Position numbers and translations under genes: made by a program
The notes under the pieces: model-generated
Told to the model about the DNA's origin: nothing
The model's database searches: none
Seen by the model: the letters and a program-made list of their open reading frames with translations, nothing else
Shown here: piece by piece, positions 1-13,756 of the stretch
Layout: every line of letters starts with the position of its first letter
How positions within the stretch are numbered: position 1 is the stretch's first letter
DNA from: Bacteroidales bacterium
Lineage (GTDB): Bacteria > Bacteroidota > Bacteroidia > Bacteroidales > UBA932
Direction: 5' to 3'
DNA: 48,730 bases
NCBI GenBank assembly: GCA_017960545.1
Contig: JAGCYZ010000055.1
Location: forward strand, 1-48,730

Positions 1-2
1 AG

Positions 3-833
3 TACATCATCACGCTTCATCCGGACAGCAAGTCCGGAACCCCTCACCTCCATCTCGACTGCAACCGCGTCGATATGGATACCTGCCTGAACAGCGACCA
101 CCTTATCGGCATCCGGGCCAAGACTGCCGCCGAGGAGGTCAATCGCCTGCGCGGCTGGAAACGCACGAAGGAAAGGTTCGAGGAGAACAAGGCCCGCATC
201 AAAAAAGATTGCCTCGCGGTTCTGTCAGGAATGTCGGCCTTCTCCTGGGAGAAGTATACCGCTGCGCTGGAAGCCAAAGGATATACCGTCAAACTGAAGA
301 TGGATGCCTCAGTGACTGTTCGAGGGTACACGATTCAGAGTGGGAACTCCGTCTATAAGTCATCCGTTATCGGTCGTGAGTTGACGCCGTCCCGGATCCA
401 GGAGACCTGGAAGAAGATGCGTCCGGAGAACAGATACGGACAGATGACTCCAGCGGAGCGCGTCGCATTTGCGCTATCCGATGAAGGGAAGTATTACCTT
501 TTCCCTTGGGGTTTCACTATAGATGGGAAACGCTATGAGAAGATGGTTCCCGGAAGAGTTGCACGGGTCTTCGCTGAAGAAAGCAGAGTGACAGAGCAGT
601 CATATTCGCAGGAGGAGAGCAGTCATATCTTTCGGACCGCCTTTCTTCTCTACGCCGGTTTCGTTGATGCCGCCACCAACTTCGCGCAAAACTGCGGAGG
701 CGGAGGATCCGCCCCCGACCAGAACTGGGGTCGCGACAAGAACGAGGACGACATCCTCTGGGCACGCCGTTGCTTCCGCAAGGCGCGGGAGATGGTCACT
801 ACGCCAGTGATTAGGTGGGGAAGAAGGAGATAA
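3..833 (+). CDS. Relaxase / mobilization nuclease, 3' part only
   Basis: Only the C-terminal 276 codons are in the window; the frame is open from base 3 and the start lies upstream. The first visible residues, HPDSKSGTPHLHLDCN, fit the HxDxxxxPHxHxxxN motif III of MobA/VirD2-type relaxases, the metal-binding histidines that help nick the transfer origin during conjugative mobilization. The catalytic tyrosine would be in the missing part. The remainder is charged and helical, then a GGGG patch and a basic tail (ARRCFRKAR), a layout I remember from Bacteroidetes mobilization relaxases. It is separated by a strong hairpin from the leftward defence operon, and it suggests that the whole island can be or once was mobilized. 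Family call firm; exact MOB class not decided. Confidence 0.82.
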   Translation, partial: YIITLHPDSKSGTPHLHLDCNRVDMDTCLNSDHLIGIRAKTAAEEVNRLRGWKRTKERFEENKARIKKDCLAVLSGMSAFSWEKYTAALEAKGYTVKLKMDASVTVRGYTIQSGNSVYKSSVIGRELTPSRIQETWKKMRPENRYGQMTPAERVAFALSDEGKYYLFPWGFTIDGKRYEKMVPGRVARVFAEESRVTEQSYSQEESSHIFRTAFLLYAGFVDAATNFAQNCGGGGSAPDQNWGRDKNEDDILWARRCFRKAREMVTTPVIRWGRRR

Positions 834-845
834 ACCCAAGAAACG

Positions 846-876
846 TTGAACTGCCGAGGCTTCCTTGGCAGTTCAA
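846..876. terminator. Bidirectional hairpin between relaxase and nuclease genes
   Basis: The arms TTGAACTGCC and GGCAGTTCAA are perfectly complementary, and an inner GAGG/CCTT stem extends the hairpin to a CTT loop. It lies between two convergent genes, so it can end transcription from both. On the plus strand it is followed by AT-rich sequence rather than a pure T run. Confidence 0.7.
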
Positions 877-967
877 TTATAAATATAATAGTGGGTATTT
901 CCTGAATGGAAATAATCGAGACTCTTCCCCAATTGGTGTATCGGGCAAGTAAAACAGATTGGCGTTG

Positions 968-2209
968 CTATTTATCGCTGAAATCAAAAAGTTGGACAGC
1001 TAAGAACACTTCTCGATCAGGGTCATTGGGCATTGAAAACTTATAGTTAAACCAGGTCTCGTCATTTGCTTTTTCAGTACTTTTATAGTTCGCGTGTATA
1101 TCAATGTTATCCCTGACACCATCTACTGCCGCAGTCATTGTTGTATCTCGAACGAATAGCAATAAAGCTGCCTTAGTGTCTCTCCAGGTGAGGTAACTTA
1201 AAAGCTGGCTGATTGCATCGAGGAAGACTTGCTTCCCCTTCCAAAACTTACATTCAGCGATAAAGACGATACCCTCGCCACACTTAACCATTATATCAGT
1301 TTTCCCGTTCTTGTTGAATGCCTCTCCTGTAGCTGACTCTGTCTTGAAAGTTGTTTGAATCTGTGTTAGAAATAAATCACGAAGAGTTTCTTCGTCCATC
1401 CCTTTCGTTACCTTTGGGAAGGATTCATACATTTTACCGACTGTATGAATTGCATCTAAAATCTGTGCATATCGCTGCGCATCCATCGTTGGCGTCAGAT
1501 TCTCAACCTCCTTACCGACGGCTCTATTTTCAGGTTGCGGATACCGTTTGGTGACTGTCGGAACGGAGTAGGTACGAGGGATACCTGCGTGTGCTGTTAT
1601 CGGTGTCCCAAGACCAGTCAGGAAACTGTTGTCACGCTTGATCTTCTCCTTTCGGCCAGCAAAGATACTGCGAATCGTTTCAGGAAGGGAATTATTATAT
1701 GCCCTGATATCCTTCTCAAGAAATCCAAGCATCTTTACAAGGCTGTCTTTCCTGTTCTCAAACTCCCGTTTCACCTTTTCCGAATCCTCCTCAAGAACGA
1801 GGATGTCGGTATAGACGCATCCATGTGAGATATGGAAATGTCCACTTCCAGACGACAATATTGTAGATGGTCTGCAGTTCAGAATGTTTGTATCCCCCTC
1901 GACAGGGATGATATACCGAACCACCGTTCTCTCAACGGCTTTATTTGCCATCCAGTACCGAGGCAAGTACTCGGCGTCAACAAGGACCTTTCGTGGCTCT
2001 ATTCGAACCTCATCAAAGTGGACTATAGGGACATACAGAGAGTTATCCTCGATCAAATACTTGACATAGTCCTCTTCATTTACATTTAGGACATAATCAT
2101 TATCAAGCTTATTAATCACTTCCCGCAAATGATTCTCGCCAGTGCGGGGAAGAGCCATAGCATCGTATTTTTGAAAGAGGTTATCGTGATCGATTCTGAA
2201 ATGCTCCAT
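968..2209 (-). CDS. PD-(D/E)XK nuclease-like protein, last gene of the defence operon
   Basis: 413 residues. The C-terminal third carries GKTDIMV followed by FIAECKFWKG, that is Asp305, Glu319 and Lys321 in the D...ExK spacing of the restriction-endonuclease-like fold, then a helical stretch and a strand (ALLLFV) as expected for that fold. The N-terminal 200 residues match no family I know. It follows the secreted-protein gene by 26 bases and is read in the same direction as the methyltransferase and GHKL ATPase genes, so it may be the DNA-cutting subunit of the system. The alternative is an independent single-gene defence nuclease that shares the operon. Nuclease fold is inferred from the motif; substrate unknown. 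Confidence 0.7.
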   Translation of the reverse strand: MEHFRIDHDNLFQKYDAMALPRTGENHLREVINKLDNDYVLNVNEEDYVKYLIEDNSLYVPIVHFDEVRIEPRKVLVDAEYLPRYWMANKAVERTVVRYIIPVEGDTNILNCRPSTILSSGSGHFHISHGCVYTDILVLEEDSEKVKREFENRKDSLVKMLGFLEKDIRAYNNSLPETIRSIFAGRKEKIKRDNSFLTGLGTPITAHAGIPRTYSVPTVTKRYPQPENRAVGKEVENLTPTMDAQRYAQILDAIHTVGKMYESFPKVTKGMDEETLRDLFLTQIQTTFKTESATGEAFNKNGKTDIMVKCGEGIVFIAECKFWKGKQVFLDAISQLLSYLTWRDTKAALLLFVRDTTMTAAVDGVRDNIDIHANYKSTEKANDETWFNYKFSMPNDPDREVFLAVQLFDFSDK

Positions 2210-2235
2210 ACAATCCTCCCAAAATAGCTTGTTGG

Positions 2236-2808
2236 TTAAATGTCATCAATAATGGTTTTTCGGAGAGCCTTTACGTTCTGTTCGTCTGCATAGGCGCATA
2301 CGACATAGTATTTGAACTGAAAATAGGCTAGAGAGATGACGATATGACCTCCCTCAACTTCCCAAAGCGATTTGTAATTGCACTGACCGTCATGTAATGC
2401 ATTTTTCCGAAAGAAATCCTCGTTATGGACATCTGTTGTGAACTCCTCAACATGTTCGCTTGGCTCACCGTATTTCTCCTTGTAAGTGGCCACAACATCG
2501 TAATATTTGTCCTCGATGGTCGGCCAGTTGTCTCCGGCCTCTACCAACGCGGAAACAGCAGATACAGATTTACTGGTTGGATCAGGATAGACAACCACCA
2601 TCACGCCTGGAGTTGCCATGAAGTTACCGGTAAGGATAATGCCATCTGGAGATGATTCAATCTGTTTGAAGCCTTTCTGAACCAGCTGCTGGGCAAATGC
2701 CTTGTATTCGCCGTCGATGGGGATTCCTTTGAACTTGAGGTGAGCGTTCTGAGCGTTGAGAGCAACAGCCATCAAGACAACCATTGTGGTAATTATGTTT
2801 CTTTTCAT
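2236..2808 (-). CDS. Secreted protein of unknown function inside the defence operon
   Basis: 190 residues. The start MKRNIITTMVVLMAVALNAQ is a clear Sec signal peptide (basic n-region, hydrophobic core, cleavage probably after the NAQ around residue 20). The mature part has no cysteine-rich or repeat structure and no family I can name; short secreted proteins of this kind are common in Bacteroidetes. It begins 11 bases after the stop of the 151-residue gene and ends 26 bases before the nuclease gene, so it is almost certainly co-transcribed with them. A periplasmic or exported protein is an odd member of a DNA-defence operon and may be a passenger. Confidence 0.75.
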   Translation of the reverse strand: MKRNIITTMVVLMAVALNAQNAHLKFKGIPIDGEYKAFAQQLVQKGFKQIESSPDGIILTGNFMATPGVMVVVYPDPTSKSVSAVSALVEAGDNWPTIEDKYYDVVATYKEKYGEPSEHVEEFTTDVHNEDFFRKNALHDGQCNYKSLWEVEGGHIVISLAYFQFKYYVVCAYADEQNVKALRKTIIDDI

Positions 2809-2819
2809 TGCGAATGAGA

Positions 2820-3275
2820 CTATTTCTTAGAGTAATTGAAGAAGAATGTCTTAACAGGGTTTTGAAGAGACGTTGAACAGCAATACTCAACATCCATATG
2901 ACTTATGGGGAGGACATAGATAATGCCTTCTTGGGGTATGATGGCAAAGATATCGTTTGGCTGTGCGACGTCATAGATCTCACTTCCAAACCACATTCTC
3001 GCATCACCCCTTGTCCCAGCCCGATACATTGATGAACTGGCCTCTATGTTCTTCTGGAACGTCAGGATATGAGTATCTATTGATATCTTCTCTCCAGGTT
3101 GTTGCGTAGAATAATCGTGAACACCAGTATTCTGGAGTAACTCACGTAAGGCAACCTTCGCATCGAAGATCCCATGATGAAGAATGTTCTGGGTCAAGCA
3201 AACCAAAACGTACTGAATACCTTTTTTGTCAAGATACTCTGTATTCATCTCCTCCAGTTCGGTCAGGGCTCTCAT
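2820..3275 (-). CDS. Small protein coupled to the cytosine methyltransferase, function unknown
   Basis: 151 residues, no signal peptide or membrane segment. The ATG lies one base after the methyltransferase stop codon, so translation is probably coupled. The C-terminal half is strand-rich (DIFAIIPQEGIIYVLPISH). I recognise no domain or catalytic motif. By position it belongs to the methyltransferase system; it could be a specificity or control subunit, but nothing in the sequence decides this. Confidence 0.7.
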   Translation of the reverse strand: MRALTELEEMNTEYLDKKGIQYVLVCLTQNILHHGIFDAKVALRELLQNTGVHDYSTQQPGEKISIDTHILTFQKNIEASSSMYRAGTRGDARMWFGSEIYDVAQPNDIFAIIPQEGIIYVLPISHMDVEYCCSTSLQNPVKTFFFNYSKK

Positions 3276-3276
3276 A

Positions 3277-5154
3277 TCAATCTATATTCTCAAGTATTAC
3301 ATTACCAATTGCACGGGCCATAAGAGGCGGAACGGCATTTCCGACCATAGTATATTGCGGTGTCTCAAACTTACGCATCTCACCTCCGGTTGTCCTTTTA
3401 CCTTGAAATACAAAAGAGTCATCAAAAGATTGTAAACGGGCCATTTCGCGTACTGTTAGAGCGCGATGGCTTGCGTAATGGATAAAGTCATCTGGGAGAG
3501 TTACAACTGTAGGACTCTGTCCGGCAGGGTTCAGGACGGTATAATTTCTCTTGTTTGAAAAAAGCCCGTTATCTTCAAGATATGCCTTGCACTCTGGAGT
3601 ATAGGCACCAAAACGTGCAATTGCCGCTAGACGCTGTTGGACTATTTCACTATGTCTACTGGTTTTGTGGTTCTGAAGGTCTGCCAAATGTCTCTTCCTC
3701 TTATGTTTTAGTTCGTCTTCATCCTTAACAAAGAAAGGTTGACCCTTTATCTCAAAGCGATGCTGGAGGCGACCCTCTTTGCTCCATTCTGCATAAGATT
3801 GGCCACCGTTTTCCTCAGGACGACTATCAGCAGTACGATTAACGATCAACGGCTCAAAATCCTGAATGCGATGATACGGACGGTATGTATTAATCTCTTC
3901 TCCGTTACCGATAAAATCCAAATCTGAAATAGCCTCATAGATAGTCACTCTATTCTCATGACTAACTGTGGCCGGAATACTAGTAATCTGGCGTTGATCT
4001 TTACGAGCACCGATAAAAAGCACACGTTCACGTGTTTGTGGCACGCCGTAATCAGCGGAATTTACCACTATGGGATTGTCAACCCTATAGAGGTGGATGT
4101 CTTCAATAAGACGGTTTAGCATATCAACCGACTTGAAAAATGTTGCATACTGTTCCAGCGCGTGAAGGGCCTCATCCAGAGTTGCAAGATATAAATCCAA
4201 AAGTTCCTGAAAATCCTTAACATCCTCCTGAAGATCCTTCAATCCTTCTTCTTTCTCAATCGCCTCTTTGATTTCTTTAATAATTGCCTCATCCTGAAGT
4301 GAATCGATGAATTTATTCATTCGATAGGCAAAGGTATCATTGTCTAAATCGGACGCAGTCTTCTCCTGAATAATAGCGTAACGAAGCTTTTCTCTAGATA
4401 GAGAATGGCTCAATAAACGGAGTCCATGACGTATCGTGTTGATGTTGCGACCACTTTTGCTAGTCTTGAAATCGAGCTGCTTGGTAATAATCTTGAATTG
4501 CTCCTCTAATACAGCGAAATACTGTTTCTCTAAAGAAGAATACTCTTTACCTTCCTCCAACTCCATCTGGATTTTAAGCATTATGCCCTTCTTCAGTAGT
4601 GCCGGCACGTTGCTTAGGATCGTATCTAAAAAATCCATCAGCTCTGGAATGACGGAAACGTCAATTATCGATCGAATCTCTTCTTTAACAGCATCTTTGA
4701 ACCGCCCCTGATCCTTTGTTAAAAGACCAGTAACGTTCTCCATTACAAAGTATTTGGGCTTCAGAGCCTTTATAACTTTGATATAATGCAGAAATAGATT
4801 ATCCCTCTTATCATTCTTGCGCCGACGCCCTGAAAGGCTGAATGACTGGCAGCTCGGGCCACCGGTAACAACATCGACTTCGCGGTCCCCAATTTTAGCT
4901 CGCAATTTCTCCAGGAATTTGTCATTCATGATATCTTCCTTGATAAAGGCGGTCGCGAGACCGAGTTGTTCATTATATCTGGCTTTGTGGGTTAGCTCAC
5001 AAGTCGGACTGATATCACTAGCAAGAATAAAATCAAAGTACTTATCTACTGTATATGATTGTAAGAACCCCTCACTGAAGCCTCCGGCGCCAGCGAAGAG
5101 ATCCACAAATGTTATTGGTCTCCTTCCCCCCGTAAAATCAACTTTCTCTGCCAT
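3277..5154 (-). CDS. dcm: DNA (cytosine-5)-methyltransferase with a large internal insert
   Basis: 625 residues. It has the ordered C5-methyltransferase motifs: motif I FVDLFAGAGGFSEGF (residues 16-30, SAM binding), motif IV GGPSCQSFS with catalytic Cys102 (PSC instead of the usual PPC), motif VI MENV (139-141), motif VIII QTRERV, then the target-recognition region, motif IX (RALTVREMARLQ) and motif X (TMVGNAVPP). Typical family members have 330-450 residues; the extra length is mainly a charged, helical segment of about 200 residues (roughly 150-355) between motifs VI and VIII. It should methylate cytosine at C5 in a specific sequence, protecting the host DNA. It follows the DUF6339-like gene by 2 bases. 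The divergent vsr gene would repair T:G mismatches arising from deamination of its product. Confidence 0.96.
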   Translation of the reverse strand: MAEKVDFTGGRRPITFVDLFAGAGGFSEGFLQSYTVDKYFDFILASDISPTCELTHKARYNEQLGLATAFIKEDIMNDKFLEKLRAKIGDREVDVVTGGPSCQSFSLSGRRRKNDKRDNLFLHYIKVIKALKPKYFVMENVTGLLTKDQGRFKDAVKEEIRSIIDVSVIPELMDFLDTILSNVPALLKKGIMLKIQMELEEGKEYSSLEKQYFAVLEEQFKIITKQLDFKTSKSGRNINTIRHGLRLLSHSLSREKLRYAIIQEKTASDLDNDTFAYRMNKFIDSLQDEAIIKEIKEAIEKEEGLKDLQEDVKDFQELLDLYLATLDEALHALEQYATFFKSVDMLNRLIEDIHLYRVDNPIVVNSADYGVPQTRERVLFIGARKDQRQITSIPATVSHENRVTIYEAISDLDFIGNGEEINTYRPYHRIQDFEPLIVNRTADSRPEENGGQSYAEWSKEGRLQHRFEIKGQPFFVKDEDELKHKRKRHLADLQNHKTSRHSEIVQQRLAAIARFGAYTPECKAYLEDNGLFSNKRNYTVLNPAGQSPTVVTLPDDFIHYASHRALTVREMARLQSFDDSFVFQGKRTTGGEMRKFETPQYTMVGNAVPPLMARAIGNVILENID

Positions 5155-5156
5155 AG

Positions 5157-6056
5157 TTATCTTTTCTTATGCTTTTTATGTTTGTGTTTTTTTGAAGGCC
5201 GTGGTTGAGCTGTGCTGGAAATCGCAGCGGCTGCAGAAGCCAGAGCTTCGTCCCTTAGTTTCTTCTCCTTTTTCCTATCACCAACACTCTTGATTACGTC
5301 GCGGTTTTCCTTCAGGAAATTATAAATATCCTCTGAGGTAAGCATGCTGAGTTCGACAACACCGCCAAGCTTGTTAATGAGCTGGATGCATTTGTCAGTA
5401 CGGTACTCAAAATACTTATCAAACACCGTATCCTCACCCTTTTCTGCCTTATCCAGTTCATCGAAATAAAAATCAAGAATACCGCGAACCAGTACAGGAT
5501 TACTAAAAATGTAGGTCGCTGCGGCAATACCACGGTCCCTCAACTTTTGAATAGAGAATAGGAGTTTCGTGTACTTATAGTCCAACGTTCCATCCTCGTT
5601 TTCGATAACGGTATTGTGGACGGACCAATACATGCCTTCCAGCCAGTTACGAATCGGGCCCTGCCCATAAAACCAGTGCTCGGATATGTATGACGCACGG
5701 CATTCTGGACTGTTAATCTCGGGCCAGCGCTTTCTCATATATGGATAAAGGACAACATGGGAAAGATACTGCCAGAAATGAGACTGAGCGGCTAAAAGTG
5801 GCGTCAAAATGCCACGATATGCTTCATACAGGATTTTTGCCGCATAAAAATCGTCCACGGCTTTGTTCGTTTCTGCGTATTCCATCATACCCGATAGATC
5901 CGGCTGTTCAAAATCAAGCTCCTGAACATTGTCACCAGCAGCTTGCTTCCAGTCATGCTCGGGATTAGTGTAGAACTTCAGGTTTTCTTCGACACTGACC
6001 CGAAGATTATCCGCATAGGATGGTAAAAAAATACCTTGTTTCATGGCAAACGACAT
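5157..6056 (-). CDS. DUF6339-like protein of the defence operon
   Basis: 299 residues. The central pattern HFWQYLSHVVLYPYMRKRWP, followed by HWFYG, a conserved RNWLEGMYW and a later RDRGIAAATYIFSN, resembles my memory of DUF6339, a bacterial family of unknown function often seen near DNA methyltransferases. The protein is mostly helical and ends in a very basic tail (KKHKHKKHKKR), which could bind nucleic acid. It sits 3 bases after the unknown 282-residue gene and 2 bases before the methyltransferase. The family call rests on memory of the pattern and should be confirmed; no catalytic residues are apparent. Confidence 0.68.
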   Translation of the reverse strand: MSFAMKQGIFLPSYADNLRVSVEENLKFYTNPEHDWKQAAGDNVQELDFEQPDLSGMMEYAETNKAVDDFYAAKILYEAYRGILTPLLAAQSHFWQYLSHVVLYPYMRKRWPEINSPECRASYISEHWFYGQGPIRNWLEGMYWSVHNTVIENEDGTLDYKYTKLLFSIQKLRDRGIAAATYIFSNPVLVRGILDFYFDELDKAEKGEDTVFDKYFEYRTDKCIQLINKLGGVVELSMLTSEDIYNFLKENRDVIKSVGDRKKEKKLRDEALASAAAAISSTAQPRPSKKHKHKKHKKR

Positions 6057-6059
6057 TGT

Positions 6060-6908
6060 TTAAGGAAGCTGCTTATTGGCATCATCTATAGCACGAAGAA
6101 TAGGCTTATTAAGAAGCTTATCCACAACGACATAGATGTCTTCATATTCCAACTCATAAGTATCGTCACGAAGTGATATTGTTCCATCAGCATTCAACTC
6201 ATCAAGATAACGGGTTAGGTAAAACACCCAATCCCTATTCTTGTCGGGGGCTTCCCGCAACATATAAATTGCTTGTACAAGAGCGGAATATACAAGCGAT
6301 GCCTCTACAACACCAGGACATAAATCCTCAACGCGATTATACCGTGTATCATAATCAATAGGAATCTTCACGATAATCCTCCCTCCAGAAAAGTCGTATT
6401 TGATATTATCGACCTGAGAACTCATAATGCGAATTATCATGCTCAAATCTGCCGCAGAGTTGCTCTGCTGTAGCGATACAGTGAAATCGTCAATACTGGC
6501 TAATACTGCTCCTTTGGGAAAATCAACAGAGCCCTCATATACTTCATCGATATTGAGGAAATCACAACCTATGATTTCTTTACATGCGACAATAATAATT
6601 TTAACAGTACAACGCTTGTATATCTTCTCAAGTGGTATGGCAATGTCGAACGAAGGTGTTTGAAACTCGTGATGTTGCAAATAATAGGTTGCCGAACATT
6701 CGATAATGCACTGATATACAGCCTTCCCTTCGGAGATAAGCCTGTCTATACCTGATTCATGACAAGTAACATCATAATGCAAATTAAGAACGTTTGTTTC
6801 TCCATCAACGGACTCGGTATGAGCGCCTTTTACGGGGTCATCACTAAGATAAGCCCCGTGCAATCCCCATATCGGATAGGGATATGTCGCAGATTCTCTA
6901 ATTTCCAT
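6060..6908 (-). CDS. Unknown protein overlapping the GHKL ATPase gene
   Basis: 282 residues, no signal peptide or membrane span, acidic overall. The first half is rich in predicted strands (YQCIIECSATYYLQ, CTVKIIIVACKEIIGCD) and the second half is helical. I recognise no domain. Its start overlaps the 3' end of the GHKL ATPase gene by 11 bases, so the two are translationally coupled and the proteins probably work together. The strand-rich N-terminal half could be a structural or DNA-contact module; this is a guess. Confidence 0.75.
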   Translation of the reverse strand: MEIRESATYPYPIWGLHGAYLSDDPVKGAHTESVDGETNVLNLHYDVTCHESGIDRLISEGKAVYQCIIECSATYYLQHHEFQTPSFDIAIPLEKIYKRCTVKIIIVACKEIIGCDFLNIDEVYEGSVDFPKGAVLASIDDFTVSLQQSNSAADLSMIIRIMSSQVDNIKYDFSGGRIIVKIPIDYDTRYNRVEDLCPGVVEASLVYSALVQAIYMLREAPDKNRDWVFYLTRYLDELNADGTISLRDDTYELEYEDIYVVVDKLLNKPILRAIDDANKQLP

Positions 6909-8982
6909 AAGCCTTGATGATTAACGTGTAGTTCTTAAGACTCTCGACGGGAGTGAAGCGAACTTCATTCACAACGTCCTTATGAAGGTCGAACCCAACA
7001 ATTTCATTGTTATCTTGACCAGATATCTTACAACCAGCAGAAACGCGGCGCAGTTCAAGAGGAACCTGCCCGGCTACACCTTGAACTGATAAAATCAGGC
7101 GACATGACTCATAGTCTTGAGGCACTCTGATGACAAGCTTACAAGCGAACTCCCCATCATGAAGAGGGATCAAGCGACGATTGCGACCGTCTAGTTTTAT
7201 TTCTGTCATGTGTTTACCTTTATCATTATCTTCAGTAGATTCTCCTGGAGTAAATCCTTCCCCTCCAACGGTAGGTAAAGTAGGCTTTTCTGGATTACCC
7301 TCTCTTTCTGATTTACCTGTTCCACCACCTCCAGAGCCACCATCACTTCCTGCTCCTGCTCCAGTTTCCGAACCGGTAACTTCGGGAGGAATGACTGAAC
7401 CAGTATCCTTCTTTTTCTTCTTCCCGCCCTTCTTTGTCTCCAATATCGTTACGGAAGAAGAACCCTTTCTCTTTGCCTGTTCCTCTTTAATAATATTGGT
7501 AGTCGGCCACAACAATTCCTCACTCTTATCTTCCGCTTTGCTTGAAGAAGTGCCCAGACGGTGTTTCTTGAGAGACAGTATCTCCTTTTCAATATCCTGC
7601 TCCTGAGGGAAAACCAGCTCTTCACAAGCCGCAATAAATTCCTTCACTTCCCGGCGAGTTTTGATGGCTAGCGTTTTCGTCTCTCTCCGGACATTCCGCA
7701 GTTCGTCTTCGTCCCATTTATCATGAGTTACATTTTCCATGATTCTTAGATACCTACTGCCAACTCCATCGCAGACAAAAATGCCATAATATCCTTTATT
7801 ATTCCTTCCGCGCTGTACCTCGATCGCCATCGAGTTATTCCTCATATACACGACGCTATCACGGGATCCCTCAGATTTGATGCGTTGGCTTTTCCACATG
7901 TACAAAACTGCGTGACCTAGACACTTGAATCTTTCCGGGAAGACTTCATCGGAATCAATGACTAAATGATCTTCGTCGCATTTCTGGTTCATCAAGGCTT
8001 CAAGAAGATACGGTCTGGGATTGAACTCTATCTCCGGAGTATTTGTCCTGACGTAATCCAAATCAGTAAACTTCTCTGAAGGGAAATAGACATCCAGCTT
8101 TTCAACCAGGTTCCCTGCACAGAAATACTCGCCGTCAATCTCTACGGCCAACCTATCTTCATAAATGGCCTTGAAAAAACTGCGAAGAGCCTCTTCCTTC
8201 ATTTTCAAGATATCCTCCTCGGAGCGTTCAATGCCGATGACGAAAACATCTGTACCAGGATCAGTCCTTCGAAATACTTCCGGAATACGATCACCAGTAT
8301 TTGGCCGATTTCCTCCTTCTGAATCATAAAAAGCAATTGCTTCATAATGCGTAGCTGCACCAGATGCGTCAATTAATTTATGGTCAGATAGCTTTATTAC
8401 GCCCTCTCCGTAAGTCTGGTCGTCTTCTGTTTTCGTTGAATAGTATACGGCGTTTAATTCGGAATTCACAAAACCGACCGTCTTCCCAAGACCATGACTG
8501 CCACCGGCGTCATCTTCTTCTTTATAACTCGCACTGGATTCTCTCACACATGCCTTGAATGCACTTGGCAAATCGTCATCGTCAACATATGACATTCCTC
8601 GAGTATTATAATCTCCTACCCGAAGGTATCCGATGGTAGATTCTAAATGACTTTCGAGATACTCGTATTTGCTCTCATAAGGATCCTTGCCATTTTTGTA
8701 CTTTTTATTATGTTCGCTACAAGCCCTGAGGCGCGCTAATAGCGAGATTATAAGAGCAGGGTAATCAGAACAGCGTAACTCTCCAAACTCGAATTTGACA
8801 ACGACTGGCCCATCTAGATGCAACTTAGAATGTGCATCCATCGAATTTTGGATGTACTCTCGAACGAGGCATCGGATTTTATGTCCGATAAAAGGAGCAA
8901 AGGATGAATCCTCTCGACTTTGCCCCATGGAGTTCCGGCGTCTATCCACGAAATTCCATTTGCAACCGAGATCTTTTGACAT
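6898..8982 (-). CDS. GHKL (MORC/MutL/HSP90-type) ATPase of a defence system
   Basis: 694 residues. The N-terminal ATPase domain has motif N as REYIQNSMDA (Glu42, Asn46, Asp49), motif G1 as GDYNTRGM (Asp124, Gly129) and the lid motif GGSHGLGK (160-167), all diagnostic of the GHKL fold. An S5-like transducer region probably follows (about 230-430), then a charged helical region, a low-complexity Gly/Ser/Pro linker (roughly 545-600, including GSDGGSGGGGTG) and a C-terminal strand-rich domain of about 95 residues. ATP-driven dimer closure is the family mechanism. Prokaryotic GHKL ATPases in operons with methyltransferases and nucleases are a known theme of restriction-type systems related to eukaryotic MORC proteins. 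It starts 9 bases after the small conserved gene. Confidence 0.9.
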   Translation of the reverse strand: MSKDLGCKWNFVDRRRNSMGQSREDSSFAPFIGHKIRCLVREYIQNSMDAHSKLHLDGPVVVKFEFGELRCSDYPALIISLLARLRACSEHNKKYKNGKDPYESKYEYLESHLESTIGYLRVGDYNTRGMSYVDDDDLPSAFKACVRESSASYKEEDDAGGSHGLGKTVGFVNSELNAVYYSTKTEDDQTYGEGVIKLSDHKLIDASGAATHYEAIAFYDSEGGNRPNTGDRIPEVFRRTDPGTDVFVIGIERSEEDILKMKEEALRSFFKAIYEDRLAVEIDGEYFCAGNLVEKLDVYFPSEKFTDLDYVRTNTPEIEFNPRPYLLEALMNQKCDEDHLVIDSDEVFPERFKCLGHAVLYMWKSQRIKSEGSRDSVVYMRNNSMAIEVQRGRNNKGYYGIFVCDGVGSRYLRIMENVTHDKWDEDELRNVRRETKTLAIKTRREVKEFIAACEELVFPQEQDIEKEILSLKKHRLGTSSSKAEDKSEELLWPTTNIIKEEQAKRKGSSSVTILETKKGGKKKKKDTGSVIPPEVTGSETGAGAGSDGGSGGGGTGKSEREGNPEKPTLPTVGGEGFTPGESTEDNDKGKHMTEIKLDGRNRRLIPLHDGEFACKLVIRVPQDYESCRLILSVQGVAGQVPLELRRVSAGCKISGQDNNEIVGFDLHKDVVNEVRFTPVESLKNYTLIIKAYGN

Positions 8983-8991
8983 GGGGAATGG

Positions 8992-9231
8992 CTACTTGTT
9001 AAACTTAAAACCGCCCTTGTTGTTTTGTTTGCTCAGTTCATTCATATATACATTACGCGTGTCTTTAAGCGCTTTAGTGATTTCGCTGAACATCTGTTCA
9101 ACATCATCCGCATCGTACTCGTAATTGTTTCTGTTCGAGCAGTTCTGCAGAAGTGTAAGGTAATTCAGGATCTTCGATACTCGTGTTGAGGCAACCTTGG
9201 TAAACCTCTCGCGTTTGGTGGTGTCTGCCAT
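8992..9231 (-). CDS. Small conserved protein, first gene of the defence operon
   Basis: 79 residues from the ATG at 9231. The frame stays open to 9336, but a strong promoter (-7 box at 9264-9271) lies inside that extension, so the upstream start cannot be used from it. The protein is helical with a KRERF start, a CSNRNNYEY core and a FxEITKALKD helix. Small proteins of this pattern sit, as I recall, in front of GHKL ATPase/Dcm clusters in other bacteria. It could be a regulator or an adaptor for the ATPase; no HTH is evident. It ends 9 bases before the ATPase start codon. Confidence 0.72.
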   Translation of the reverse strand: MADTTKRERFTKVASTRVSKILNYLTLLQNCSNRNNYEYDADDVEQMFSEITKALKDTRNVYMNELSKQNNKGGFKFNK

Positions 9232-9263
9232 GATGAATAATATTGGTTTTGAGGTGTCAAGTG

Positions 9264-9294
9264 CAAATATAACGCAATATTCCGAGCAAACAAA
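9264..9294 (-). promoter_or_regulatory. Promoter of the eight-gene defence operon
   Basis: On the minus strand TTTG (9291-9294) is followed after 19 bases by TATATTTG (9264-9271), a near-ideal Bacteroidetes -33/-7 promoter. The predicted leader before the ATG at 9231 is about 25-30 bases. Confidence 0.75.
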
Positions 9295-9426
9295 ATTTTC
9301 TTGTAAATATTTGCCGTATTTTACAATATTTGTCAAATGTAGTGAAATTAAGCCCCGTCTTCTAATTGTTATTGATTTGACGCTGAGGCTTATGGGCGTC
9401 CTTTCTTACATATTATGTTTTCACTA

Positions 9427-9457
9427 TTGGGATTCTCGACGTAATGGAGTAATTTTG
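9427..9457 (+). promoter_or_regulatory. Promoter of vsr
   Basis: TTG at 9427-9429 and TAATTTTG at 9450-9457, 20 bases apart, lie 20 bases before the vsr ATG. It faces away from the defence-operon promoter across about 130 bases, so the two could share control. Confidence 0.65.
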
Positions 9458-9477
9458 TTGTATATTTCGCGATTGCC

Positions 9478-10065
9478 ATGGCCGATTTTTTATCGTCAGA
9501 AGAACGTTCTATCCGAATGTCGCGCATCCGCTCCGTTTCCACCAAGCCGGAGTTATTGTTGCGTCATGCGATCTGGCATCGCGGATTTCGGTATCGTGTA
9601 AATGCGAAAAACCTTCCAGGAAGACCGGACATTGTACTGCCTAAGTACCGGACAGTTGTCTTTGTACATGGCTGCTTCTGGCACGGCCACAAAGGGTGTA
9701 AGGTTTATTCTGTTCCCAAAACTAATACAGAGTTCTGGCTAGCCAAGGTTGCCCGGAACCAAGAACGGGATCAAGAAGTATGGCGTAAGCTGGAGGCCAA
9801 AGGGTGGAGCGTCATCATTGTTTGGGAGTGTCAGTTGAAGAAGGCGAACCTTGAAGAAACCATCGACCGGGTAGCCGAGGAGATTGTCCGAAATGGGGAA
9901 GTCTATCGAGCCACTCAAGAAGAAAGAAAAACAGCTCGGGAAGGCTATCTGAAAGAGAGAAGGGAACGAAAAGAAAGAGAATTAGCCCTTCTGGAGGAAA
10001 TGAATGCTATCTCCCTTAAGTCGCCAAAAACGCCCATAAATCGGCAAAAAGTCGGCAAAAACTGA
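9478..10065 (+). CDS. vsr: Very short patch repair endonuclease Vsr
   Basis: 195 residues. It nicks DNA 5' of the T in T:G mismatches that arise when 5-methylcytosine deaminates. Key residues are where the E. coli enzyme has them: catalytic Asp51 in GRPDIVLP, His69 in CFWHGH, and zinc ligands Cys66, His71, Cys74 and Cys118. The N-terminal RSIRMSRIRSVSTKPE is the family signature. E. coli Vsr has 156 residues; here a charged C-terminal extension of about 45 residues (RKTAREGYLKERRERK...) is added, and its last codons lie in a repeat of TCGGCAAAAA. It is transcribed divergently from the methyltransferase operon that it would serve. Confidence 0.96.
   Translation: MADFLSSEERSIRMSRIRSVSTKPELLLRHAIWHRGFRYRVNAKNLPGRPDIVLPKYRTVVFVHGCFWHGHKGCKVYSVPKTNTEFWLAKVARNQERDQEVWRKLEAKGWSVIIVWECQLKKANLEETIDRVAEEIVRNGEVYRATQEERKTAREGYLKERRERKERELALLEEMNAISLKSPKTPINRQKVGKN
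10021..10061 (+). repeat. Three short direct repeats (TCGGCAAAAA type) at the island edge
   Basis: TCGCCAAAAA at 10021-10030, TCGGCAAAAA at 10041-10050 and again at 10052-10061. They sit inside the end of vsr, about 55 bases from the 3' end of tRNA-Leu. Spaced copies at an island-tRNA border resemble integrase arm-binding sites, but this is inference. Confidence 0.5.
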
Positions 10066-10072
10066 GATGCAA

Positions 10073-10110
10073 AAAGAGCTAACCGCTGAAAATCAGTCAG
10101 TTAGCTCTTT
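10073..10110. terminator. Terminator between vsr and tRNA-Leu
   Basis: Arms AAAGAGCTAAC (10073-10083) and GTTAGCTCTTT (10100-10110) are perfectly complementary, with an inner CTGA/TCAG stem. On the minus strand the stem runs into a T tract, so it should end the tRNA-Leu transcript; it can also end vsr. Confidence 0.85.
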
Positions 10111-10116
10111 CCTAGG

Positions 10117-10428
10117 TGCCCCGGGCGGGAATCGAACCCGCACGGACCTTTCGGTCCAAGGGATTTTCGTACCACTATGACTTTCGTCACCTTGCAGATT
10201 GTTTCTGCCTGTTTGTAGTCCGGACTATTCCTTCACCATAGACCGTGTGTCTTTAGGTGTGTCGTGTCTAGTCTCTGCACCTTCCTCTTGTATGAGGCTT
10301 GGCTCAAGATTGCCATCAGCATTACCTGTTAAGGTTTCCTTGAATTTACGACATTCTACATCTCTCCTTTGGGAAAGCGCACTCAATTGTGTCTAAGTCC
10401 CTCGTGTCTACCATTTCACCACCAAGGC
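10117..10428 (-). tRNA. tRNA-Leu(UAA), split by a group I intron
   Basis: The 5' exon is 10395-10428 (34 bases, acceptor GCCTTGG) and the 3' exon is 10117-10167 (51 bases, acceptor CCGGGGC plus discriminator A). Joined, they give 85 bases with a 7-bp acceptor stem (two G-U pairs), anticodon stem AGGGA/TCCCT, anticodon loop CTTAAAA (anticodon UAA), long variable arm GGACC-GAAA-GGTCC and T arm GCGGG/CCCGC with TTCGATT. CCA is not encoded. The break is exactly between U34 and A35. The gene is followed by a terminator and lies at the edge of the defence island, so its 3' end may have been an integration target. Confidence 0.93.
10168..10394 (-). ncRNA. Self-splicing group I intron in the tRNA-Leu(UAA) anticodon loop
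   Basis: 227 bases, without an endonuclease gene. The 5' exon ends in U and the intron ends in G, as the two-step guanosine splicing reaction requires. P1 can form between exon ACUU and intron GAGU, with the U-G wobble at the splice site. Core elements are visible: GGCAATCTTGAGCCAAGCC (10296-10314), the P7/R segment GCAGAGACTAGACAC (10264-10278) and the S segment AAGGAATAGTCC (10222-10233). These closely resemble the cyanobacterial and plastid tRNA-Leu(UAA) intron (subgroup IC3) as I remember it, and the insertion position is identical. Splicing activity itself is inferred. Confidence 0.92.
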
Positions 10429-10439
10429 TTTCTGTGGTG

Positions 10440-10447
10440 CAAAGATA
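10440..10447 (-). promoter_or_regulatory. -7 box of the tRNA-Leu promoter
   Basis: TATCTTTG on the minus strand, 12 bases before the tRNA 5' end. No clear -33 element was seen at the ideal spacing. Confidence 0.55.
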
Positions 10448-10468
10448 GAAAAATCCGCAATAATAATG

Positions 10469-10476
10469 TATCTTTG
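10469..10476 (+). promoter_or_regulatory. -7 box for the HAD phosphatase gene
   Basis: TATCTTTG on the plus strand, about 50 bases before the ATG at 10527 and divergent from the tRNA-Leu promoter. Confidence 0.5.
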
Positions 10477-10526
10477 CCCGCCAATAGGTGGAGAGATTCT
10501 TCGCTAGCGCTCAGAATGACTAGGAA

Positions 10527-11135
10527 ATGATTAAGGCAGTAGTATTTGATATGGGAGGCGTGATCCTCCGTCTGAATGTTCCCAGGTGCATAAACAGCTT
10601 CAAGACAGATGCCGGCTTCACGGACATCGAAGACCTCATTAACATATATCAGCAGCAGGGATTCATCGGGGAATTCGAGGCCGGGAAAATAGGCATCGAG
10701 GAGTTCTACGCCAACTGCCTGGCCCATTCCAGGCCCGGAACCTCCCGCCAGACAGTGCACGACTGCTTCTGCTCTTTGCTTGACGGCACTAACAAAGACA
10801 CCATAGAACTGATAAAGGCCATCAAGGGGAAGTACAAGTTATATATTCTGAGCAACAACAATCCCATCTCCCTGCATCTGCTTGGGGAAGAGCTTGCAAA
10901 AGAGGGCCTTGACATAGACGAAACCTTTGAGAAAAAGTTCTGCTCCTTCCAGCTCAAAACGCAGAAGCCGGGCAAGGAAATATATCTGAAGGCCCTGGAA
11001 GGCATAGGGTGCGATCCCTCGGAGATACTGTTCATAGACGACTCTCCGGCCAATCTGAAGACCGCCCAAGAACTAGGTATCCAGACCCTGCAATACTATC
11101 AGGATCTGGATATCAGAGATTCTTTTACTGCCTAG
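10527..11135 (+). CDS. HAD-family phosphatase, YihX-like
   Basis: 202 residues. HAD motif I is VVFDMGGVIL with nucleophile Asp8; the usual second aspartate (position +2) is Gly10, as in the YihX-type subgroup (FDLGNV). Motif II is ILSNNNP, motif III the lysine in QKPGKEIY and motif IV FIDDSPANL. These predict a cytoplasmic phosphatase acting on a small sugar phosphate or similar metabolite; substrate not deducible. It stands alone between tRNA-Leu and the convergent adhE, whose stop lies 5 bases away. Confidence 0.88.
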   Translation: MIKAVVFDMGGVILRLNVPRCINSFKTDAGFTDIEDLINIYQQQGFIGEFEAGKIGIEEFYANCLAHSRPGTSRQTVHDCFCSLLDGTNKDTIELIKAIKGKYKLYILSNNNPISLHLLGEELAKEGLDIDETFEKKFCSFQLKTQKPGKEIYLKALEGIGCDPSEILFIDDSPANLKTAQELGIQTLQYYQDLDIRDSFTA

Positions 11136-11139
11136 AGAA

Positions 11140-13728
11140 CTATTTCTCTCCGTAATAGGCTTTCTTATAAAGCTCGGCAATATCGCTTACAAGAGGATAC
11201 TTGGGATTTGCTCCGGTGCACTGGTCGTCGTGAGCCTTGTCGGAAAGTTCCATCAGGTTGTCCATAAATACCTTCTCGTCAATTCCGGCTTCCTTGATGC
11301 TCATAGGCATTTCCAGATCCTTCATCAGTTTGCGAACTGCGGCGATGAAGTTATCTACACTCTCCTCTATGGTGTTGCCTCCAAATCCAAGGAAGCGCGC
11401 TGCCCTTGCAATCTTCTGGTCTGCAATGAATGTCTCATACTTGGGGAAGGGCACGAACTTGTCGGGCTTGATGGAGTTGTACTTGATTACATAGGGAAGG
11501 AGGATGGCGTTGGCGCGTCCGTGAGGGATGTGGTAGTCACCACCCAGTTTGTGGGCCATACTGTGGTTGAGGCCCAGGAACGCGTTGGTGAATGCCATAC
11601 CTGCAATGCAGGATGCATTGTGCATCTTCTCGCGGGCGGTCAAGTCTGAAGGACCGTTGTCGTAGGCGCGTTTCAGATAGGTGAACACAAGGTCCATTGC
11701 CTGGAGCGCGAGGCCGTCGGTATAGTCATTGGCCATATTGGAAATATAGGCCTCGATAGCGTGGGTGAGCACATCCATACCAGTGTCAGCGGTTGCGCGC
11801 TTGGGCAGCGTAAGTACGAACTGAGGGTCTATGATGGCCACGTTGGGAGTTACCGCGTAGTCTGCGAGCGGGTACTTGATATTCTTGCTCTTGTCCGTGA
11901 TTACGGTGAAAGCGGTAACTTCGCTTCCGGTTCCGGAGGTGGTAGGGATGGCTACCATCTTGCACTTCTCAAGGTGAGGGAATTTCACAACCCTCTTGCG
12001 GATATCCATAAACTTCTGGCGGAGACCGTCGAAAGATGTTTCAGGATGCTCGTAGAAGAGCCACATTCCCTTTGCGGCGTCCATTGCGGAACCGCCTCCC
12101 AGGGCTATGATCACATCCGGCTGGAAGTGGCGCATCTCCTCCACCCCGCGCATTACAGTCTCTACGTCAGGATCGGACTCGACGTCTGAGAAGATGGTGA
12201 AGTGGCAGGTTTCCTGGCGCTTGTTGAGGTAATAAAGGACTTTGTCCACATAACCGAGTTTAACCATCATAGGGTCGCTGACGATGAATGCCCTGCTAAT
12301 GCCCTCCATATCCCGGAGATACTGGATTGAATCGTACTCGAAATAGATTTTGGGAGGAATCTTGAACCACTGCATATTGACTCTTCTTTTTGCAATTCTC
12401 TTTTTGTTGATAAGGTTTACCGTAGAAACGTTGGCGGTTGTGCTGTTGTGGCCGTAGGAACCGCAGCCAAGCGTGAGGGAAGGAGTGTTGGTGTTGTAAA
12501 TGTCACCAATGGCGCCCTGTGCGGAAGGAGCGTTGGATATGATCCTTCCAACCTTCATAGCCTGTCCGAACTTGGTGATGAGTTCGCTGTTGGTGCTGTG
12601 AATGATTGCGGTGTGTCCCAGGCCTCCCATTTCAAGTATCTTGCGGCACAGATCGAATCCTTCCTCAGAATTTTCTACAGTGTAGTAAGCCAGGACGGGG
12701 GAGAGCTTCTCTTTAGAGAGCGGATACTTGGGGCCTACGCCTGCAAGCTTGGCTATGAGGATCTTGGTGTTCTCAGGAACCTTTACGCCGGCGTTGGCTG
12801 CAATCCAGAATGCGGTCTTTCCAACCACGTCAGGGTTAAGGGCGCCCTTTTCAGGGTTGATTACATAATTGGAAACCAGTTCTGTCTCCTTCTTGTTCAG
12901 GAAATAGCAGCCGTTATCTTTCATAAATGCCTCGAACTGGGCTGCGACAGCCTTGTCAACTACAACTGCCTGCTCCGAAGCGCAGATCATACCGTTGTCG
13001 AAAGTCTTTGACATCATCAGGTCCGTGCAGGCGCGGGGAACGTTTGCCGAACTCTCGATGTAGCAAGGCGCGTTGCCAGGGCCTACGCCCAGCGCCGGCT
13101 TGCCGCAGCTGTATGCAGACCTTACCATACCGGATCCGCCGGTGGCAAGGATCAGGGAAACCTTGGGGTGGTTCATCAGCGCGGTGGTGGCCGCGATAGA
13201 CGGATGCTCTATCCACTGGATGCAGTCGTCAGGAGCTCCTGCGGCCACAGCGGCGTCCCTGAGGATGCGCGCGGCTGCGGAAGAAGACTTCTGTGCAGAA
13301 GGGTGGAAACCGAAGATGATAGGGTTGCGGGCCTTGACACAGATCAAAGCCTTGAACATTGTGGTGGAGGTAGGGTTTGTAACCGGAGTTACGCCGGCCA
13401 CTATTCCTACGGGCTCCGCAACTTCTACATATCCTTCCAGTTCGTTGTCTTCTACAACTCCCACGGTCTTCTCGTCCTTGATGGAGTTCCAGATATACTC
13501 GGTGGCGAAAATGTTCTTGATGATCTTGTCTTCGTAAACGCCGCGTCCGGTTTCATCCACTGCAAGACGTGCGAGCTCGCGGTGATGCTCCAGGCCGGCC
13601 AGTGCCATAGCGTGGACTATGTTGTCAACTTGCTCCTGATCCATCTCGATGAAAGATTTCAGGGCTTTCTCTGCTTTGTTGACCAATACGTCAATCTCTG
13701 CTTGAGGGTTCTCTATCTGCGTTTTCAT
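11140..13728 (-). CDS. adhE: Bifunctional acetaldehyde-CoA / alcohol dehydrogenase AdhE
   Basis: 862 residues, the usual AdhE length. The N-terminal aldehyde dehydrogenase half (1-440) has the catalytic Cys249 in FDNGMICASEQ and reduces acetyl-CoA to acetaldehyde. A linker leads to the C-terminal iron-dependent alcohol dehydrogenase half (450-862) with ALGGGSAMDAAKGM, TTSGTGSEVT and the metal-binding region HAIEAYIS...NHSMAHKLGG, which reduces acetaldehyde to ethanol. The enzyme recycles two NADH per acetyl-CoA in fermentation and forms spirosome filaments in other bacteria. It starts 28 bases after the rex stop codon on the same strand, so Rex controls it directly, probably in one transcript. 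Confidence 0.98.
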   Translation of the reverse strand: MKTQIENPQAEIDVLVNKAEKALKSFIEMDQEQVDNIVHAMALAGLEHHRELARLAVDETGRGVYEDKIIKNIFATEYIWNSIKDEKTVGVVEDNELEGYVEVAEPVGIVAGVTPVTNPTSTTMFKALICVKARNPIIFGFHPSAQKSSSAAARILRDAAVAAGAPDDCIQWIEHPSIAATTALMNHPKVSLILATGGSGMVRSAYSCGKPALGVGPGNAPCYIESSANVPRACTDLMMSKTFDNGMICASEQAVVVDKAVAAQFEAFMKDNGCYFLNKKETELVSNYVINPEKGALNPDVVGKTAFWIAANAGVKVPENTKILIAKLAGVGPKYPLSKEKLSPVLAYYTVENSEEGFDLCRKILEMGGLGHTAIIHSTNSELITKFGQAMKVGRIISNAPSAQGAIGDIYNTNTPSLTLGCGSYGHNSTTANVSTVNLINKKRIAKRRVNMQWFKIPPKIYFEYDSIQYLRDMEGISRAFIVSDPMMVKLGYVDKVLYYLNKRQETCHFTIFSDVESDPDVETVMRGVEEMRHFQPDVIIALGGGSAMDAAKGMWLFYEHPETSFDGLRQKFMDIRKRVVKFPHLEKCKMVAIPTTSGTGSEVTAFTVITDKSKNIKYPLADYAVTPNVAIIDPQFVLTLPKRATADTGMDVLTHAIEAYISNMANDYTDGLALQAMDLVFTYLKRAYDNGPSDLTAREKMHNASCIAGMAFTNAFLGLNHSMAHKLGGDYHIPHGRANAILLPYVIKYNSIKPDKFVPFPKYETFIADQKIARAARFLGFGGNTIEESVDNFIAAVRKLMKDLEMPMSIKEAGIDEKVFMDNLMELSDKAHDDQCTGANPKYPLVSDIAELYKKAYYGEK

Positions 13729-13756
13729 AATGCTATGATATTTAATCAGGTAATAC

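Follow-up and report, generated by a model that had tools for sequence, protein, structure and literature searches.

A Conserved GHKL ATPase–DUF6339 Core Joined to a Methyltransferase/Vsr Restriction-Modification Locus in a Bacteroidales Genome

Introduction

MutL and other proteins that combine a GHKL ATPase domain with an S5 domain form ATP-dependent dimers and activate nucleases, and MORC proteins proper carry the motif GhXhhpXXRhl in their S5 domain. According to Iyer, Abhiman and Aravind (2008; PMC2292703), eukaryotic MORC proteins derive from prokaryotic MORC-like ATPases, the MORCs and paraMORCs of restriction loci may loop DNA between recognition and cleavage sites, and a strongly conserved ExxxH motif is the mark of paraMORC2. 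In the same paper, MutL is connected with MutH for mismatch repair and with Vsr for very short patch repair. Here we analyze a stretch of 48,730 nucleotides from a Bacteroidales bacterium (hereafter the window), in which an operon of eight genes contains a predicted GHKL ATPase (A), two companion genes (B and C, the latter encoding a DUF6339 protein) and a C5-cytosine DNA methyltransferase, and we compare this locus with the described systems that it most resembles.

The closest of these is PDC-M33, a multi-gene phage-defence candidate of PADLOC-DB v2 that consists of the same three genes, A, B and C, in the same order. None of the PDC-M33 models matches the 79-residue product of the first gene (p79), the 151-residue product of the sixth (p151), the Vsr-type endonuclease, the PD-(D/E)XK-type nuclease, or the methyltransferase (for the latter, among the best 25 of its 62 matches). 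Our literature search found no paper naming PDC-M33 or DUF6339, and a term search of rumen and archaeal surveys using PADLOC found no mention of PDC-M33 in the text that it covered.

The paraMORC2 proteins, as described in PMC2292703, share with A the GHKL motifs, the ExxxH motif, a neighbourhood of methyltransferase and restriction nuclease genes, and a wide but sporadic distribution. They are mainly cyanobacterial and Gram-positive in that paper; our sample is mostly from Bacteroidota, but was seeded from them. Unlike the paraMORC2 loci described there, the operon studied here has no helicase gene. B, C and p79 were not found by name in the text covered, although the figure of that paper may depict them as its X or Z domains. 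The locus also resembles the MutL–MutH and MutL–Vsr pairs of E. coli in that a GHKL ATPase is found beside MutH-, Vsr- or HNH-type nucleases. On the other hand, the operon has no MutS-like partner, B and C match no mismatch repair protein, and A matches no solved MutL by sequence. Likewise, the GHKL-Shedu protein VcSduA of Vibrio cholerae is described in PMC12137116 as bringing a GHKL ATPase and a PD-(D/E)XK nuclease together in one defence locus; there GHKL is fused to a DUF4263 nuclease, whereas here the two are separate genes with no DUF4263 match.

Results and Discussion

A Conserved Core of Three Adjacent Genes and p79

The core of the locus is p79-A-B-C, a horizontally mobile module in which p79 is present in a minority of loci. 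It forms the first half of eight leftward open reading frames (ORFs) at 968–9231, which are separated, from p79 (8992–9231, minus strand) onward, by 9, −11, 3, 2, 1, 11 and 26 bases. An earlier note on this DNA had described such an operon, with gaps or overlaps of at most 26 bases, and had assigned to it a GHKL ATPase with full motifs, a DUF6339 protein, a Dcm-type methyltransferase, a PD-(D/E)XK nuclease and a promoter-like site; the ORF coordinates and the analyses below agree with each of these assignments.

A (6898–8982, minus strand, 694 amino acids [aa]) matches the PADLOC model PDC-M33A with an E-value of 5e-66. Its motif boxes are near-invariant among 78 aligned relatives: R41, E42, Q45, N46 and D49 are kept in 76 sequences (the other two are gapped there), D124, T127, G129, G161, G164, G166 and G243 in all 78, and K167 in 77, with serine in the remaining one. 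E416xxxH420 was found in all 78 sequences and in 13 of 13 in a set with archaeal members. Since no Pfam family matched A at E-values up to 1 and sequence searches of solved structures gave chance-level matches at most, its GHKL/S5 fold is inferred from these motifs, which fit a paraMORC2-type GHKL ATPase with a putative C-terminal S5 domain.

B (6060–6908, minus strand, 282 aa) has no Pfam family and matches PDC-M33B (7.9e-29). C (5157–6056, minus strand, 299 aa) matches PDC-M33C (2.8e-21) as well as DUF6339 (PF19866, 2.2e-32, over the Pfam cut-off), so that all three PDC-M33 models are matched by adjacent genes in the same order. Multiple alignment revealed that W227, T74 and P10 are invariant in B (58 sequences) and that W95 is invariant in C (48 sequences), where E78, H100, R110, H127 and N228 are conserved in 85–94%. 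These columns form no recognised nuclease arrangement, though both proteins may still have activity, and sequence searches of solved structures with B and C returned chance-level matches only.

To analyze the distribution of A, four of its sequences served as queries against 84,980 species genomes. The best 80 of 119 relatives detected were used and, together with earlier loci and the window, gave 93 loci with an A protein of at least 300 aa, which were dereplicated at 80% identity to 80. With the window included, B is the next gene downstream of A, in the same orientation, in 68 of 78 eligible loci, and C lies within 2 kb of A in 72 of 77. The loci had been chosen by A, and therefore a reverse test was carried out: in 375 genomes of the phylum (own genome included), five DUF6339 genes were over the cut-off, and all five adjoin an A gene. 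A sixth match in these genomes is below threshold and contains stop codons. Distances between A proteins are strongly correlated with those between B proteins (0.879, 68 loci) and between C proteins (0.888, 71 loci), and none of 500 permutations was as high in either case. A, B and C have a fixed order and share common descent.

Five A loci (L027, L028, L101, L108 and L109) have no C recognisable by the C profile. At L108:11966–13514, L109:11850–13667 and L028:11398–12878, a distant homologue of A precedes two genes that resemble B and C in size. The gene pair of L109 had no PADLOC match; these distant homologues may represent a second branch of this type of system.

The core was also observed on mobile replicons. 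A tblastn search of plasmids with C found nothing, which reflects the sensitivity of that search, because annotated DUF6339 genes adjoin plasmid homologues of A. In a Halomicrobium urmianum plasmid (L019), two A...DUF6339 cassettes (1–3606 and 9998–13741) flank a C5-methyltransferase gene. Two scans of viral contigs for A yielded no confirmed relative, yet they overlooked at least one, since a viral contig carrying p79-A-B-C (L148) surfaced in a later scan for p79.

Methyltransferase and Restriction Genes near the Core

The fifth gene (3277–5154, minus strand, 625 aa) encodes a C5-cytosine DNA methyltransferase (Pfam, 3.2e-54) with the catalytic motifs GGPSCQ, ENV and QTRERV; it is the only gene of the host genome matched by this family, in two pieces. 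Among the 48 loci with full flanks, 32 have a C5-methyltransferase gene within 6 kb of A. With the window left out, 18 of 31 loci have such a gene at most 2.5 kb from the core, compared with 2 of 31 in the ring at 5–7.5 kb. Within 2.5 kb their placement varies: 18 are downstream and 12 upstream on the same strand, and 7 downstream and 4 upstream on the opposite strand. In contrast to B and C, the methyltransferase shows no distance correlation with A (0.034, 43 loci; 169 of 500 permutations as high). In the 37 loci common to the three comparisons, the values are 0.867 for A-B, 0.872 for A-C and −0.048 for A-methyltransferase.

The closest relatives of the locus, L031–L034, whose A proteins are 48–53% identical to ours, keep the order A-B-C-methyltransferase, and the methyltransferase is 56% identical in the two that were compared. 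The genes that follow it differ: a p151 homologue, an HNH nuclease and Vsr in L031; MrcB-like, RhuM, DUF2357/PD-(D/E)XK and Vsr genes in L032; no same-strand gene of at least 90 aa for about 3 kb in L033; and a 97-aa ORF, DUF4062 and Schlafen-type genes in L034. The methyltransferase is a frequent yet exchanged partner of the core, and the nuclease likewise swaps between loci.

Restriction-type genes of several kinds were detected when 216 of 228 selected proteins encoded near the core were scanned with Pfam. Counted as lower bounds among the top 25 of 96 and of 115 families, the neighbours include HNH_2 (at least 8), N6_Mtase (at least 4), MutH and HpaII (at least 3 each), Mrr_cat and MrcB_N (at least 2 each) and EcoRII-C (at least 1). 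A Planococcus plasmid has the order AlwI enzyme, Vsr, methyltransferase, p79, A, B, DUF6339, and a Priestia plasmid has p79, A, B, DUF6339, MutH/Sau3AI.

The locus in the window is a composite, in which the core is joined to a C5-methyltransferase/Vsr restriction-modification locus. In the best reading of p79-A-B-C, to which we give about an even chance, it is a transferable ATP clamp of the MutL/MORC type that couples target recognition to a nuclease supplied by its neighbours. A would dimerise on ATP in the manner of MutL and MORC, and together with B and C it would form a clamp or loop on DNA. This clamp would tie the cutting activity of the neighbouring system's nuclease to the recognition of DNA that is unmodified or foreign, as MutL does for MutH and as was suggested for paraMORCs in 2008, and p79 might control or load the ATPase. 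The data fit such a division of labour, with A as the sole predicted enzyme of the core and a variable nuclease provided by the host locus. Here the cutter would be the PDC-S54 nuclease encoded by the last gene of the operon, Vsr, or an unlinked enzyme, because no catalytic domain accompanies p151. The function of the core is in this way inferred from its neighbourhood.

Alternatively, A-B-C, with p79, might be a complete MORC-like defence in itself, which traps, compacts or silences foreign DNA with no nuclease, the restriction genes being mere co-riders of the same islands. The common descent of A, B and C beside an exchanged methyltransferase, the varying side and strand of the latter within 2.5 kb, the conserved columns of B and C with no recognised nuclease signature, and the 16 of 48 full-flank loci with no C5-methyltransferase within 6 kb are all consistent with this view. 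However, both the short-range enrichment of C5-methyltransferase genes and the diversity of restriction nucleases beside the core exceed what general island sharing would need, and we regard a stand-alone defence as possible but somewhat doubtful.

Several observations weigh against the nuclease-coupled clamp. Some of the 16 loci just mentioned have type I restriction genes by eye and others have no such genes. An independent system with no more than its islands in common with the methyltransferase would likewise give no correlation between that enzyme and A, and part of a shared history may be masked by saturated distances among remote methyltransferases. Neighbours unrelated to restriction are plentiful (Fic/DOC at least 7, integrase at least 3, transporters and metabolic genes), and no enrichment of Vsr near the core was found (4 of 31 loci within 2.5 kb and 3 of 31 at 5–7.5 kb). 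p79 directly precedes A in 22 of 77 loci, a slight undercount in that L058 was missed in ORF picking, and lies within 1.5 kb of A in 24 of 70. The missing Pfam match and solved relative of A belong here as well, and to our knowledge there is no experimental work on the core.

p79 and Its GHKL Partners

p79 belongs to a conserved protein family and is probably a small helical protein. Nothing was found over the Pfam cut-off, PADLOC gave a single weak match (PDC-M01B) in one of 18 family members, and a sequence search of solved structures returned short matches only, chiefly to designed proteins. Its distances are correlated with those of A (0.574 over 28 loci), a value reached by none of 500 permutations. 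The two genes are also associated across 395 genomes (own genome included), of which 9 contain A, 7 contain p79 and 4 contain the pair (Fisher P = 4e-6).

Independently of A, 23 p79-like genes were found, distributed over 6 other genomes, 12 plasmid records and 5 viral contigs. Nine of them precede A: those of L148, Planococcus and Priestia megaterium, whose regions were inspected, those of Deinococcus, Arthrobacter and P. aryabhattai, placed before A by coordinates, and those of the genomes G350, G397 and G264. Six others directly precede a GHKL protein different from A, with gaps of 1–13 bases (L119:9345–9575, L120:8589–8819, L149:7986–8213, L153:5004–5225, L154:5058–5255 and L155:4980–5210). 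The proteins of L119, L120 and L149 form a family of 751–822 aa (L149–L119, 27% identity, 1e-48; L119–L120, 3e-34), for which L119 has the GHKL-type boxes TNSIDA, DAGEGQ and GKYNMGSTG, and the p79-like loci of L119 and L149 adjoin C5-methyltransferase genes. Those of L153–L155 form a family of 615–621 aa with the boxes REFF-NA, NTG-GM and GNFGIGAK and an HATPase_c_3 match below the cut-off. Boxes read by eye, together with weak Pfam matches in four of the six, suggest that both are GHKL families. The A profile did not match any of these proteins (E-values up to 100 and 10; L149 at 0.01 only), and no BLASTP match at 0.01 was found between L119 or L120 and L153–L155.

Five p79-like genes have no visible GHKL neighbour, namely L118, Vescimonas and three on viral contigs (L150:7923–8231, L151:7977–8228 and L152:2451–2711). 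The rest are two near-duplicate plasmid records and one Ensifer record with an 800-aa protein. In addition, three phage-labelled records have a p79-like match, including two Synechococcus phages (S-CRES1/2; OQ587939.1, 27723–27890). It is possible that the p79-like proteins of L150–L152 and of the Synechococcus phages are decoys, or that they serve an unrelated phage use. These distributions suggest a broader, tentative view that we consider rather unlikely as a whole: p79 would be a general partner of defence-type GHKL ATPases of at least three mutually dissimilar families, p79-A-B-C would form a portable clamp on DNA, driven by ATP, which could attach to nearly any restriction system and provide or strengthen its effector step, and the p79-like proteins that stand alone in some phages would be decoys against this clamp.

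Upstream of p79, the minus strand at 9264–9294 matches TTTG-N19-TATATTTG, a pattern of the Bacteroidota type. The general form TTTG-N18-21-TAnnTTTG, which we take to be the promoter consensus of this phylum, has its sole match in the window here; at least one match was also found in 30 of 100 shuffled sequences. p79 is thus the promoter-proximal gene, a position that would suit a regulator, and p79 and the GHKL protein might sense infection or the state of DNA and govern how strongly the neighbouring methyltransferase and nuclease are expressed or how active they are. PMC8011034 indeed interprets GHKL families located next to C5-methyltransferases as two-component-like systems. Such a role appears improbable, however, since no response-regulator or helix-turn-helix domain was detected by Pfam in p79, A, B or C at E-values up to 1 and the orientation toward the methyltransferase is inconstant. 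None of the ten window proteins had a match to HEF_HK or Response_reg_2 (PF19191 and PF19192) at E-values up to 1.

Other Genes of the Locus

p151 (2820–3275, minus strand) is a homologue of the N-terminal region of MvaI/BcnI enzymes with no catalytic domain. It aligns with 36% identity to residues ~77–200 of a 454-aa enzyme of this family, whose catalytic domain is located at 222–445, and two further plasmid MvaI/BcnI enzymes agree with this homology. Nothing was found over the Pfam cut-off for p151, and its solved-structure sequence search gave chance-level matches. The MvaI/BcnI loci of Acinetobacter, Moritella and Vibrio plasmids also resemble ours in their methyltransferases, which are 52–66% identical over C-terminal stretches of 64–98 residues and 25–29% in the other aligned part. 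They differ in that p151 is a gene of its own here and the window lacks the catalytic domain. We rejected a hidden catalytic domain of the HNH or MvaI/BcnI kind, as three HNH enzymes and one MvaI/BcnI catalytic part, used as queries, gave no significant match in the window, and no cognate restriction endonuclease was found beside the methyltransferase. In Xylanibacter ruminicola D31d (L031), the p151 homologue at 15728–16183 is followed by an HNH_2 nuclease gene, and p151 therefore looks like a recognition or accessory part that can serve different nucleases.

The last gene of the operon (968–2209, minus strand) encodes a PD-(D/E)XK-type nuclease that matches the PADLOC single-gene candidate PDC-S54 over its full length (5.2e-118). 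It has no Pfam family, and its solved-structure sequence search gave chance-level matches. In the alignment with three plasmid homologues, D305, E319 and C320 are common to all four sequences and K321 of the D-xn-ECK motif to three. A Shedu identity was rejected because DUF4263 was not matched at E-values up to 1. We detected homologues of this nuclease in 23 plasmid records, with no A-B-C in the three regions inspected; the PDC-S54 model matched 7 of 200 related genomes (own genome included), two of them strongly.

p190 (2236–2808, minus strand, 190 aa) looks exported by eye and has nothing over the Pfam cut-off. Relatives were found in 4 of 23 genomes of the genus (own genome included), one of which, G003, has three, with one near an A gene. 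p190 was rejected as a system component because of these relatives elsewhere in the genus, and it is probably a passenger.

The earlier note had proposed that the eight genes form one unusual, possibly new, defence system, in which four proteins (79, 282, 151 and 190 residues) match no family. One tight operon behind one promoter match would agree with an obligate eight-gene system. Among the loci analyzed, however, the S54 nuclease accompanies the core in the window only, p151 in one other locus (L031) and p190 at one other place (listed as L021 and L085), and p190 and the S54 nuclease both occur apart from the core, as described above. We consider such a system hardly credible, and the neighbourhoods and distance correlations led us to reject the eight genes as a unit. 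The GHKL ATPase, DUF6339 protein and C5-methyltransferase still speak for a defence-like locus, and joint travel holds for A-B-C; it does not hold for the last three genes, which were hardly found with the core elsewhere, nor for the exchanged methyltransferase. Comparison with PADLOC further showed that A-B-C and the nuclease are database candidates already. Three of the four supposedly unmatched proteins have relatives: the 282-residue protein is PDC-M33B, the 151-residue protein is the MvaI/BcnI homologue, and p79 is a conserved family.

A Vsr-type endonuclease gene (9478–10065, plus strand), divergent from the operon, lies outside the region covered by the earlier note and was unmentioned there. 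It is matched by Pfam (8.3e-32, over the cut-off), NCBIfam (4.7e-42) and PADLOC (1.2e-32). A MutL-like ATPase and Vsr might together mend T:G mismatches that arise from 5-methylcytosine, which would be in line with the divergent Vsr and C5-methyltransferase of the window, with the Vsr genes in two of the four closest relatives (L031 and L032), and with the links of MutL to MutH and Vsr in PMC2292703. We find a repair function very improbable, as Vsr is not enriched near A in general and lies within 8 kb of it in 11 of 48 loci.

The host genome is 2.0 Mb in size and 78% complete, and the window is its contig 106. The G+C content is 43% over 2001–10000, compared with 49–59% past 10 kb. At the contig end, flanking the island, a partial MbpB-like mobilisation protein is encoded at 75–833 on the plus strand (9e-11), suggesting that the island is in or beside a mobilisable element.

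Conclusions

The core itself is of an already known kind, since A-B-C corresponds to PDC-M33 and A agrees with a family reported in 2008. Two aspects appear to be new, in that we have not seen them described, although no literature search was aimed at p79, for which there is no established name: p79 as a part of the core that is outside the PDC-M33 models and common to several GHKL families, and the contrast between a co-inherited core and an exchanged methyltransferase. Judged from sequence and neighbourhood, the locus most likely helps to destroy invading DNA. A link between prokaryotic MORC-like ATPases and restriction systems was drawn in 2008 (PMC2292703), and we found no tested mechanism for this group in the literature covered. 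A-B-C, with or without p79, is a conserved and exchangeable unit whose dependence on the neighbouring restriction system can be tested directly, and the p79 gene that they have in common gives access to several GHKL systems together.

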